From positions 1 to 64,000 of the forward strand of contig NZ_JACJPF010000048.1 in the NCBI RefSeq assembly GCF_014695915.1: a DNA stretch of 64,000 nucleotides. Direction: 5' to 3'. The notes under the pieces were generated by a model, which was given only the letters and a program-made list of their open reading frames with translations, was not told where the DNA came from and did no database searches. A program made the translations under genes and the position numbers. The stretch comes from Trichocoleus sp. FACHB-40. Its GTDB lineage: Bacteria; Cyanobacteriota; Cyanobacteriia; Cyanobacteriales; FACHB-T130. Below, in pieces: positions 17,258 through 58,712 of the stretch (its first letter is position 1; each line of letters opens with the position of its first letter).

Positions 17258-17365
17258 TAATCGCGGCTACACAGACAAAACCTGCCTTCGCAGGTTGTAA
17301 AGACACGAAATTTCACGTCTCTACATAAGTCCGCGTAGGCGGACTTTGTTCGTGTAGCCGCGATT
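17258..17365. repeat. Dispersed palindromic repeat (GCGGCTACA family)
   Basis: Bounded by TCGCGGCTACAC and its inverted form GTGTAGCCGCGA. Inside are AACCTGCCTTCGCAGGTT and AGTCCGCGTAGGCGGACT, both hairpins. It belongs to the same family as the copies near 13232, 32863 and 47366. Its right end passes into the 40-bp tandem array. Confidence 0.8.
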
Positions 17366-17465
17366 TCAATCGCCAGGGCTAAGCTTAGTTCGTGTAGCCG
17401 CGATTTCAATCGCCAGGGCTAAGCTTAGTTCGTGTAGCCGCGATTTCAATCGCCAGGGCTAAGCT
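17348..17465. repeat. 40-bp tandem repeat, three copies, reaching into the ferritin-like gene stop
   Basis: The unit, beginning GTTCGTGTAGCCGCGATTTC and ending GCCAGGGCTAAGCTTA, occurs at 17348-17387, 17388-17427 and 17428-17465 (the last lacks two bases). Copies appear identical. The last seven bases of the array are the stop codon and final codons of the minus-strand gene at 17459, so the array seems to have grown by copying the 3' junction of that gene. Confidence 0.93.
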
Positions 17466-47576: not shown

Positions 47577-47846
47577 TTAAAAAGCTTGAATCCATTCGCG
47601 GACATCGTATTCTGTCCAAATGCCGTTTTGCCAGTAAGGATCGGCTTCGATTAACTGACGGACAGTGGCTTCGTCTTCGGCTTCGTAGATACCAAAGACT
47701 TTGGTGAGATCCTTAGTAGGGCCAATGGTAATTAAAACACCGGATTCTTTTTGGGCTGCAAGACCATCTAGATGTGCTTGGCGATAAGGCGATCGCTTCT
47801 CTAAAACATCCTCGCAATAACTTCCCCACATCACATATTTAGTCAT
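47577..47846 (-). CDS. YciI-like protein
   Basis: 89 aa, standard length. The conserved His is in YRQAHLDGL and the conserved Asp in EADPYWQNGIW, the family's putative active-site pair. The fold is a dimeric alpha+beta barrel (ferredoxin-like). Function is not settled; some members are dehalogenase- or muconolactone-isomerase-like. It is followed on the same strand side by pheT (upstream in coordinates), 74 bp away across a heptamer repeat, in the order pheT then YciI for transcription. Confidence 0.85.
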   Translation of the reverse strand: MTKYVMWGSYCEDVLEKRSPYRQAHLDGLAAQKESGVLITIGPTKDLTKVFGIYEAEDEATVRQLIEADPYWQNGIWTEYDVREWIQAF

Positions 47847-47898
47847 GGCTAATGGCTAATGGCTAATGGCTAATGGTTAATTGCTAATGGCTAATATA
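47845..47898. repeat. Heptamer tandem repeat (ATGGCTA)
   Basis: ATGGCTA recurs about six times, mostly perfectly, covering the start region of the YciI gene and the spacer to pheT. An inverted copy (ATTAGCCATTAGC) follows at 47903-47915. This is a typical short tandemly repeated repetitive sequence of cyanobacteria. Confidence 0.88.
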
Positions 47899-47920: not shown

Positions 47921-50500
47921 TTAACTTCTCAGACTGACACTAAATTTCTCGACCAGGGCTTCTCGAATTTTTTGATGTACTGGTTCGACATCTTCATCGG
48001 TGAGAGTGCGATCGCTGGCGCGGTAAACTAACCGAAACGCCAAACTTCGCTGTCCCTCTGGGACATTTTGACCGCGATATTCATCAAACAATTCCACCGA
48101 TTCCAGTAAAGCACCGCCAGCAGACGCGATCGCTCGTTTAATTTCCGCTACAGAAATTTTAGTCGAGGCAAATAAAGCCAAATCCCGGTTAGCACCAGGG
48201 AAAGTCGAGAAAGGTTTGAACACAGGTATCAGGTTTTCATCCCGATCCAGGTAGTCTAAGACCACATCCAAATCCATCTCAAAAACGTAGACAGCATCTG
48301 GCAAACCCCGCTGTTGCCTCATCTGGGGATGCAGTTGCCCAAACGTACCCAAACGATCACCCTGCAACCACAAAGAAGCTGTGCGTCCCGGATGCAGGCG
48401 CGGATCGCGTCGGTCTGGTTGATATTCTACAGGCATTCCCAGCCGTGCAAACAAACTTTCCAGCACTCCCTTAGCTTCAAACCAAGTTATCGGTTGTAAT
48501 GCGCCTCCCCGCGTCCAAGTACCTTGAGTGGGGTCGCCGCCGATAATTCCCGCCACCGAGTCAGCTTCTATTAGTCCGTCCTCTTCCCGCCAGAATACCC
48601 GACCAATCTCAAAGGCGTTCAAGGAACCGTTGCCTTGCTCCAAATTGTACTGGAAAGCATTAATTAAGGCAGATACCAACTCAGTTCGCAGCGATGAGTA
48701 TTCTGCGAACATCGGATTAGCGATCGCTACGTCTCGATCGTCCTCTGTCTTCGCCACAGAGTAAGAGTAGTGCATTACTTCTGTCAATCCTGCTCCCCGC
48801 AAAGCTTCCCTCAGCTTGCGCGTCAGCATTTGGTCGGAGGAAAGATACCCAGGTTCAGTTTTATCTGGTAGAGTGTCGCAGAAATTATCGTAGCCGTAAA
48901 GACGGGCGATTTCTTCAATCAAGTCAATTTCCCGCTCTAAGTCTCGGTAACGATAGGGTGGTACTTTCACCATCCAGACTGGGGATTGGGAATTGGGGAT
49001 TGGGGATTGGGAATTGGGGATTGGGGATTGGGAATTGGGAATTGGGGATTGGGGATTGGGACTCCCGTGTCTCCCTTCCCCAGTCCCCAGTCCCTTGTCC
49101 CCAGTCCCCAGTCCCTTGTCCCCAGTCCCCAGCGTTAGTTCACATCCCAGCGCAGTCAAGATCCGCTGCACATCTTCCGGTTGAATTTCACCAGTAGCAT
49201 CTCCCAACTCTACAGGCCCTAGAACCTGGTTTATCCGGTCAAGACGCAGCTCAATCGAACGCATCCAAGCGGAAGGGTCAGGACGAGTATCGGCAACTTC
49301 CTGAGCCACAGGAGTGCCACTAGCGAACTGGGTCAAAAGCGCGATCGCCCTCTGACAAGCCACCCCCAATTCTGCCTGATTCACCCCCCGTTCGTAGCGT
49401 CCAGAGGCTTCCGTCCTTAAATTCTGGTTGCGAGCAGATCGTCGAATTGCTACCGGGTCAAACAAAGCCGCTTCTAAAACTAAATTCTCAGTACCCTGAT
49501 AAACTTCTGTTTCCTCACCGCCCATCACCCCCGCCAAAGCCACAGGCTTGTCATTGGCAGTAATCAGCAGATTTTGGGGTTGCAAGGTGCGAGTTTGTCC
49601 ATCCAGCGTTTTCAGGGATTCTCCGCCATTGGCAAAGCGCACGCCGATAGTCAAGGTGTCGCCCCCTGCAATCTGTTGTAAGCGATCGCGATCGAAAGCG
49701 TGTAGCGGCTGCCCCCATTCCAGCAAAATGTAGTTAGTAATATCCACCACATTGTTAATCGGGCGCACCCCAGCCGCTTGTAATCGCTGCTGCAACCACG
49801 CCGGAGAAGGCGCAATTTTTACCTTTTCAATTACCGTCCCAATATAGGCGGGGCAAGCTTGCCGCTCCGAAATTCGCACACTTAAACCTGCACTTCCCTC
49901 TGGGATAGACACAGAGCTAACTTCTGGTAGTCGGAGAGCCGCACCAGTCAGCGCCGCCACCTCCCGCGCCACGCCCACCATACTCAGAGCATCAGCACGA
50001 TTCGCTGTAGAAGTCAAGTCTAAAATTACATCATCTAAACCGAGAAGCGATCGCACATCGCTACCCAACTGCGGATTCTCCAGCTCAAAAATATGAATCC
50101 CAGCCGATTCCTTCGCCAAACCCAACTCCGCCAAAGAGCAGATCATCCCAGCCGAAGGCACACCTCGGAGTTTAGCCGGTTTAATCTTCAACTCAACAGC
50201 AGGCAGATAAGTCCCCACAGTTGCCACAGGCACATAAATATCAACCCGCGCATTCGATGCCCCGCAGACGATATTCAAAGGAGACGCTGCCCCCACATCC
50301 ACAGTACAGACCCGGAGCTTATCCGCATTCGGGTGGGGTTGAATCTCCACAATTTTCCCCACCACCACCCCATCAGCCCAAGTCCGGCGGTCTTCAATGT
50401 CTTCCACCTCAAACCCAGCCATAGTCAGCGTGTCCGCCAACTGGGTTGGGGTCATCGTCAAATCAACTAATTCTCGCAGCCAGTTGAGAGAGATACGCAT
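47921..50500 (-). CDS. pheT: Phenylalanyl-tRNA synthetase beta subunit
   Basis: 859 aa, longer than the usual 790-810 aa. In order: N-terminal B1 domain with the tRNA-binding OB fold ([27 protein letters not shown]), B3/B4 ([25 protein letters not shown]), B5, catalytic-like core and C-terminal anticodon-binding FDX-ACB domain ([12 protein letters not shown]...). About residues 457-507 are a repeat-encoded insert rich in Gly-Thr-Gly-Asp-Lys and Ser-Pro-Ile-Pro-Asn units, in or beside B5, which accounts for the extra length. The frame is maintained, and the synthetase must tolerate a flexible loop there. Confidence 0.95.
48979..49131. repeat. Heptamer repeat array inside the pheT coding sequence
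   Basis: Alternating GGGGATT/GGGAATT heptamers (about thirteen) run to 49059. After a short unique stretch comes a set of CCCCAGTCCC / CCCTTGTCC units to 49131. The total is 153 bp, exactly 51 codons, and no stop arises in the pheT frame. The same heptamers occur between genes at 58575-58710. Confidence 0.93.
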
Positions 50501-58536: not shown

Positions 58537-58712
58537 GATTTGAGAGGCTAGGGGCAGAGCAGAAGAGGATAATTCTCACTCCCCAGCCCCCAATCCCCAA
58601 TCCCCAATCCCCAATCCCTAGTTAGGATTTGAGAGGCTAGGGGCAGAGCAGAAGAGAAGAATTCTCACTCCCCAGCCCCCAATCCCCAATTCCCAATCCC
58701 TAATCACTAATC
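58537..58712. repeat. 89-bp tandem duplication carrying heptamer repeats, between psb34 and thiO/thiG
   Basis: Copy 1 (58537-58625) and copy 2 (58626-58712) both begin GATTTGAGAGGCTAGGGGC and contain ATTCTCACTCCCCAGCCCCCA followed by CCCAAT(CC) heptamers. Copy 2 includes the last codons and stop of the thiO/thiG gene on the minus strand. The copies differ by a few substitutions. Confidence 0.9.

Follow-up and report, generated by a model that had tools for sequence, protein, structure and literature searches.

The pheT gene of Trichocoleus sp. FACHB-40 carries, in the part that encodes the B5 domain, an in-frame array of G- and C-rich heptamers. We consider it likely, with a probability of roughly 85%, that such arrays are copies of a dispersed repeat that is tolerated in exposed loops and kept in frame by purifying selection. 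The comparison within the genus rests on two genomes of one species, namely that of FACHB-40 itself (G000, a draft assembly of 6.38 Mb in 126 contigs) and a sister genome (G001); four genomes of other genera in the same family (G002-G005) were compared as well.

The pheT gene and its insert

The features considered lie in the window, the stretch of 64,000 nucleotides of contig NZ_JACJPF010000048.1 that was analysed:

47921..50500, minus strand: pheT, phenylalanine--tRNA ligase beta subunit (ORF of 859 aa, profile match, single copy)
49127..49141, minus strand: B5 beta-strand (residues 454-458) leading into the insert, AlphaFold2 model
49077..49132, minus strand: 5' arm in the mRNA, G-rich heptamers CTGGGGA/CAAGGGA
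49061..49076, minus strand: spacer between the arms, without a core such as TAGGTAAGACTTTTTCCCA
48980..49060, minus strand: 3' arm in the mRNA, C-rich heptamers TCCCCAA/TTCCCAA
48965..48979, minus strand: B5 beta-strand (residues 508-512) after the insert, AlphaFold2 model; Pfam B5 match from residue 504
58537..58709, no strand assigned: same heptamer class in a tandemly duplicated 89-bp unit (the unit ends in heptamers), elsewhere in the window and outside pheT

The protein matches TIGR00472 (pheT_bact) with 768.6 bits (cut-off 402.65), the profile match being broken at residue 456, and it contains the Pfam tRNA-binding, B3/4, B5, CLM and FDX-ACB (anticodon-binding) domains. The Pfam B5 match covers profile positions 35-67 only (residues 504-537) and lies past the insert. 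A single place in the genome matches the C-terminal 351 aa of PheT (6 of 6 candidates scored), indicating that the gene is present in one copy. Two inverted heptamer arrays in codon register (49132-48980) encode residues 457-507 of the 859, which bears out an earlier note on this DNA that had placed an in-frame insert in or beside the B5 domain. TRF reported 11.6 copies of TGGGGAT at 48980-49060 and 8 copies of TCCCCAG at 49077-49132, both with period 7/21 (21-nt scores of 148 and 112, respectively), so that a clear 21-nt higher-order period is present. The units found are TGGGGAT, TGGGAAT, TGGGGAC and AAGGGAC, the G-rich arm has more than four G-tracts, and both flanks of the insert are continuous with pheT. 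The arms are inverted repeats (76% complementary across 51 nt), and folding of the mRNA predicts a single long hairpin for them (MFE of -92.4 kcal/mol, z = -4.64; none of 200 shuffled sequences folded as well).

In an AlphaFold2 model made from 36 PheT sequences the pLDDT is below 50 at residues 460-504 and about 30 at 461-500, between the strands 454-458 and 508-512, and the insert is thus predicted to be a disordered loop at the turn of the B5 beta-hairpin. The flexibility that the earlier note had assumed is in line with this prediction. The model has a mean pLDDT of 76 and a pTM of 0.55, at which the placement of domains is unreliable, and it has other weak stretches too; in a Foldseek search with it, bacterial PheRS beta chains ranked first.

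The array of the same kind that had been pointed out elsewhere in the window was recovered at 58537-58709. Other repeats in the window are about seven ATGGCTA heptamers at 47845-47895, between genes just downstream of pheT, and three 40-bp copies (98% identity) at 17344-17465, of which the unit opens with CTTAG and closes with CTAAG.

Codon properties of the heptamers

As 7 and 3 are coprime, three units make up 21 nt or 7 codons, and all three frames of a strand read the same cycle. Each main unit indeed gives a single 7-residue cycle in all frames of a strand, the cycles of the two strands of TGGGGAT, for instance, being LGIGDWG and SPIPNPQ. TGGGGAC, TGGGGAT and TGGGAAT are free of stops in all six frames, and an array of them can therefore sit in a gene if its total length is a multiple of three. 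This property is shared by about half of all heptamers (8,264 of 16,384 are stop-free in tandem in all six frames). The variant unit TAGGGAT has a TAG on the G-rich strand only, and the ATGGCTA unit of the array beside pheT gives a stop in every frame. Selection for the 21-nt higher-order repeat across genes is not claimed, as the lag test was merely suggestive (lag-3 match in 52 of 91 cases in genes vs 71 of 144 outside; lag-6 match in 29 of 43 vs 23 of 61).

The insert in relatives and in a sister strain

Eighty named loci matched the C-terminal part of PheT, all of the named relatives being cyanobacterial, and 79 of them were readable (L088 was not parsed). Heptamers were found in the B5 loop of PheT in none of these 79 relatives and in none of the four same-family genomes of other genera (G002-G005). 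The strain specificity that the earlier note had left to an alignment thus became a specificity for the lineage, since the array is present in the sister genome as well. In Cyanobacteria bacterium QS_4_48_99 (L085) the loop holds an unrelated, long and repeat-rich insert. The FACHB-40 insert overlies the short native loop of relatives, with a net gain of 44 codons vs G003 and 42 codons vs G002, and of only 26 codons vs G004, whose own loop is longer.

In the sister genome the pheT array lies at the same place and is 21 bp (7 codons) shorter; the unit order is changed and the frame is kept. The layout with two arms is the same in both strains, and the units, the arm lengths and the spacer differ. 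Residues 457-507 are array-encoded, as expected from the "exactly 51 codons" of the earlier note, but the size is not fixed: the sister genome has 44 codons, so 51 is not a constrained number. As the sister genome carries its own in-frame allele, the insert is no assembly slip, and taken together with the short loops of the relatives it is not universal either. Outside the array the two pheT alleles differ by 51 synonymous and 13 non-synonymous codons, a comparison of sequences that suggests purifying selection on pheT on either side of the insert. No raised substitution was seen in 100-nt bins beside the array between the two alleles, although the few codons that touch the array do differ.

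Twenty genomes of the order with a long PheT open frame (>840 aa) were taken from the listed part of 371 matching genomes, and none of these 20 has heptamers in the PheT loop; two contain a short element with inverted ends. A frame of this length did not prove a useful sign of an insert, as 13 of the 20 were explained by an open frame upstream of an MRIS start (811-827 aa from the start); the other seven (843-874 aa) were long mainly for reasons outside the B5 loop. An insert common to all PheT proteins is ruled out by the loops of the named relatives, of G002-G005 and of these order genomes.

Distribution of the repeat over the genome

A 27-nt heptamer pattern gave 349 overlapping matches in FACHB-40 and 376 in its sister, against 0 in either genome for the reversed pattern, so the abundance of the heptamers is not due to chance. 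The heptamer belongs to the GGGGA(C/T)T class already described in cyanobacteria. Within the order, long perfect SPIPNPQ arrays have a patchy distribution (7 of 120 genomes at E <= 1e-10).

We collected loci around arrays (60 from FACHB-40 and 57 from the sister genome, beside which two further sister-genome stretches flank pheT). Arrays were called from at least four heptamer units, calls were merged, and an array was regarded as in-gene when its ORF had at least 70 codons on both sides. The loci were picked by similarity to the pheT array among the matches listed and the sample is therefore non-random; in this sample 20 of 58 merged arrays of FACHB-40 (window included) and 19 of 62 of the sister genome were in-gene. 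The other 38 of the 58 lie outside long ORFs, so that the majority of the sampled arrays is intergenic; random 30-bp spots in the same FACHB-40 loci met the in-gene rule in 651 of 1,200 cases. With about a third of the sampled arrays in genes, pheT is not a singular case.

Arrays with two arms are common: 51 such matches were found in the 135 loci of the two genomes plus the window. The spacer of 29 of these contains GGTAAGA, often inside a core such as TAGGTAAGACTTTTTCCCA. A 17-nt part of the core (at most two mismatches) has 45 sites in FACHB-40 and 50 in the sister genome (reversed control 1 and 1), and 1-5 sites in each of 14 other genomes (control 0-5). This recurrence makes many arrays of the genus look copied and not only slipped, and it suggests the mobility that the earlier note had named beside slippage. 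The pheT copy itself fits that description less well, because the core is absent from the pheT spacers of both genomes and its kinship to the dispersed element is carried by the arms. A guessed core, GGGAAAGAGTCCTTCC, had no match in 274 loci.

An origin of the pheT array that has nothing to do with the dispersed repeat, in which codons of the native loop gave rise to it de novo through slippage, is unlikely, although worth weighing. Such an origin would account for the lack in pheT of a core that 29 of the 51 two-arm matches have, and unrelated repeats do occur in the same loop of other cyanobacteria. Both pheT arms, however, use the common units of the genome in the same two-arm order, and the short loops of the relatives contain no evident seed.

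Other genes with arrays

In total 27 genes, pheT included, have an array in one genome or in both (sampled loci and later pairing). By Pfam and NCBIfam matches their products include TilS, RsmB, QueA, magnesium chelatase subunit H (chlH), CobN, MutS2 and MutL, and further an LD-carboxypeptidase, CheB, a P-type ATPase, a chorismate-binding enzyme, a glycosyltransferase, an SNF2 helicase and eight sensor-kinase-like proteins; one gene (L120) had no Pfam or NCBIfam match. An array in a UPF0102 gene of the sister genome (L231:2497-2531) is a further in-gene case, outside the comparison of the two genomes. Kinases look over-represented among the array genes, in counts that are not normalised for gene number or length (FACHB-40 has 93 HisKA matches). 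Judged by eye, the arrays of three kinase paralogs (L142, L169 and L198) share one loop of the ATPase domain, just after an NAI(D/E)A motif.

The in-gene arrays that the unit rule scores as single-arm, ten in FACHB-40 and ten in the sister genome, are without exception C-rich in the mRNA; the two sets overlap by descent, and in some of these arrays the rule overlooks a degenerate G-rich arm.

The loops in question can be short or can hold other repeats elsewhere. The RsmB loop consists of 3 residues in G003 and G004 vs 61-68 in the window species. In G004 the ortholog of the L120 gene has a different heptamer (TCAGTCC, unit by eye) in the same loop and the CobN ortholog has an insert resembling an inverted repeat, and the MutS2 loop of G003 contains ATCCAAA heptamers (unit by eye). 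In G094 and G140, two genomes of another family (L100 and L102), the PheT B5 turn is occupied by a short element whose inverted ends measure 7 bp (CGCTCCC...GGGAGCG); the turn of G078 (L101), of the same genus, lacks this element.

Two of the array genes, mutL (L136) and mutS2 (L171), carry in-frame arrays that are of equal length and 7 codons apart, respectively, in the two genomes. Slippage of the array in mutL, a mismatch-repair gene, could produce a switchable mutator. Contig C58 of G003 (L253) contains a MutL segment that is 92% identical to that of the window species and has the same array remnant, as well as an exact copy of the core at C58:2741; this would reflect gene transfer or contamination of that assembly.

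Length differences between the two genomes

For all 20 in-gene arrays of FACHB-40 the ortholog in the sister genome has an array or a short remnant of one and reads on beyond it without a change of frame, and for 14 of the 20 the length differs (range -30 to +29 codons). Of seven more genes found starting from the sister genome, four differ in length but stay in frame, one has the same length and two change frame. Among genes open in at least one of the two genomes, which was the rule for entering this test, 18 of the 20 non-zero in-gene differences are divisible by three. Among the remaining paired arrays this holds for 6 of 20 (BLAST anchors; Fisher p = 0.0002) or 7 of 20 (exact 16-mer anchors; p = 0.0008); the two measures disagree at 11 of the 23 non-gene loci and both give about one third. 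The constraint to whole codons that the earlier note had expected for pheT thus appears as a bias across the array genes.

Of the 18 differences that keep the frame, 6 correspond to a multiple of 7 codons and 12 do not (e.g. -2, +1 and +5), indicating that most in-gene changes are not simple steps of whole units. Outside genes, 14 of the 21 non-zero differences are multiples of seven bases (16-mer anchors, L133 still included). When in-gene pairs were measured by anchors, 10 of 11 (BLAST; the exception was L126, at 115) and 11 of 11 (16-mers; L126 at 87) were multiples of three, and for L126 we used the difference of 29 codons from the protein comparison. One locus, L133, was moved from the non-gene set to the frameshifted genes; before this move, and with zeros counted, multiples of three made up 8 of 23 (BLAST) or 9 of 23 (16-mers) non-gene pairs. 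A third candidate for a frameshifted gene, L182/L164, was left with the non-gene pairs as its 323 aa have no Pfam match, although L182 is among the 19 in-gene arrays of the sister genome. In the BLAST pairing 24 of the 58 merged FACHB-40 arrays had no counterpart, because loci in the sister genome were taken only around its own arrays; nine of these are in genes and were paired later, and 15 stay unpaired.

Both exceptions to the frame test are sensor kinases that are frameshifted in FACHB-40. In the first (L133:2380-2800, contig C25) the frame leading into the array stops directly behind it and a different frame encodes the response-regulator part, whereas a single frame runs through in the counterpart (L191, contig C7 of the sister genome). 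The difference amounts to 77 nt by two methods and 49 by one, neither of which is divisible by three. The second (L267, contig C110) is split likewise and has an intact counterpart in L198 (contig C12 of the sister genome). Frame breaks do occur, then, and were seen here only in genes that are probably dispensable.

Origin and maintenance of the insert

The most likely course of events is that a copy of the dispersed heptamer repeat of this species came to lie in the hairpin turn of the PheT B5 domain, where the array would be translated into a Gly- and Pro-rich, probably disordered loop. Arrays would keep changing in length, often by whole units and presumably through slippage or recombination. 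Purifying selection on the enzyme would then weed out frame-breaking lengths, and net steps like the 21 bp between the two pheT alleles would be left. The loop would accordingly be tolerated, probably without being of benefit.

That the insert is instead functional, with an mRNA hairpin or quadruplex or a disordered loop tuning the production or the contacts of PheT and the array being kept for that reason, seems improbable to us. The predicted long hairpin of the arms (z = -4.64), the two-arm layout kept in both strains and the very stable quadruplexes that (GGGGACT)4 DNA oligonucleotides make in vitro, according to sections of PMC4692102, would all suit such a role. Nevertheless, the units, arm lengths and spacer vary between the strains, the same layout is found at many unrelated loci and close relatives manage without an array. 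The single-arm arrays in genes, moreover, are all C-rich in the mRNA, which would fit an avoidance of G-rich mRNA or of its variant units with a stop.

An artefact of assembly or sequencing at a low-complexity repeat is very improbable, for although repeats collapse easily in a draft of 126 contigs and the exact copy number could be off, the sister genome has an array with another in-frame length at the same place, and the flanks are continuous with pheT.

The tolerated, dispersed repeat that we favour may be part of a wider phenomenon, for which we hold a tentative view, with the odds somewhat against it: stop-free arrays might act as frame-agnostic linker DNA that colonises genes and builds disordered loops, with exposed loops being retaken by unrelated repeats and sensor kinases undergoing phase variation. 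If so, the PheT B5 turn would have been occupied more than once, namely by heptamers in this species, by the short element with inverted ends in G094 and G140, and in a third lineage by an insert rich in GGGGAGC. One loop would have been taken in all three histidine-kinase paralogs, and changes in array length would switch sensor kinases off and perhaps on again.

The arrays amount to a natural experiment on how length-variable repeats survive in essential genes, in which unit size, stop content and position in a loop seem decisive. They show how bacteria might acquire disordered segments in their proteins, provide length-polymorphic markers in core genes and point to heptamer-driven on/off switching of sensor kinases.

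Comparison with known repeat systems

Short tandem repeats with heptamer units, the STRR sequences, occur in heterocystous cyanobacteria. Among the titles and abstract openings seen we recognised no report of in-frame heptamer arrays in cyanobacterial core genes, which is weak evidence of absence.

In Nostoc sp. PCC 7120, 89 arrays of a GGGGA(C/T)T heptamer have been described, 68% of them intergenic (Rehm et al. 2015, PMC4692102), and the unit forms a quadruplex in vitro, the CD data in the sections consulted being on the unit only. The Nostoc repeats resemble those found here in unit, in genome-wide spread, in their intergenic majority (68% vs 38 of 58) and in the under-representation of the G-rich strand as coding strand. 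Few inverted pairs are reported in those sections, whereas two-arm copies are common here and 29 of the 51 share a core motif. In the same sections we found no treatment of the reading frame, the codon cycle or a strain comparison of in-gene arrays.

A table in PMC8430993 lists gluten-like peptides in a Fischerella aspartate kinase and a Nostoc RND permease, which match the translation of this heptamer; repeat DNA is not mentioned in the text around these peptides.

The Rickettsia palindromic elements (RPEs) are in-frame repeat inserts of about 150 bp in ten families, as described in part of PMC10969869. Going by that description, they are alike in being short repeat DNA in frame inside unrelated genes, and they differ in being elements of about 150 bp of ten families, whereas the arms found here are open-ended tandem heptamers.

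Tandem repeats within ORFs of Borgs, according to sections of PMC9879509, are translated into repetitive protein segments that are commonly disordered, as is predicted here. The unit lengths in Borg ORFs are all divisible by three and the units virtually all unique, in contrast to the 7-nt unit found here, of which a single family recurs throughout the genome.

The repeat class and its presence in genes were thus already known. What is added here is frame-agnostic coding in practice, the breadth of core genes entered within the genus, a strain-level test of the frame, in which two genuine breaks turned up, and the finding that other repeats have used the same loops again.
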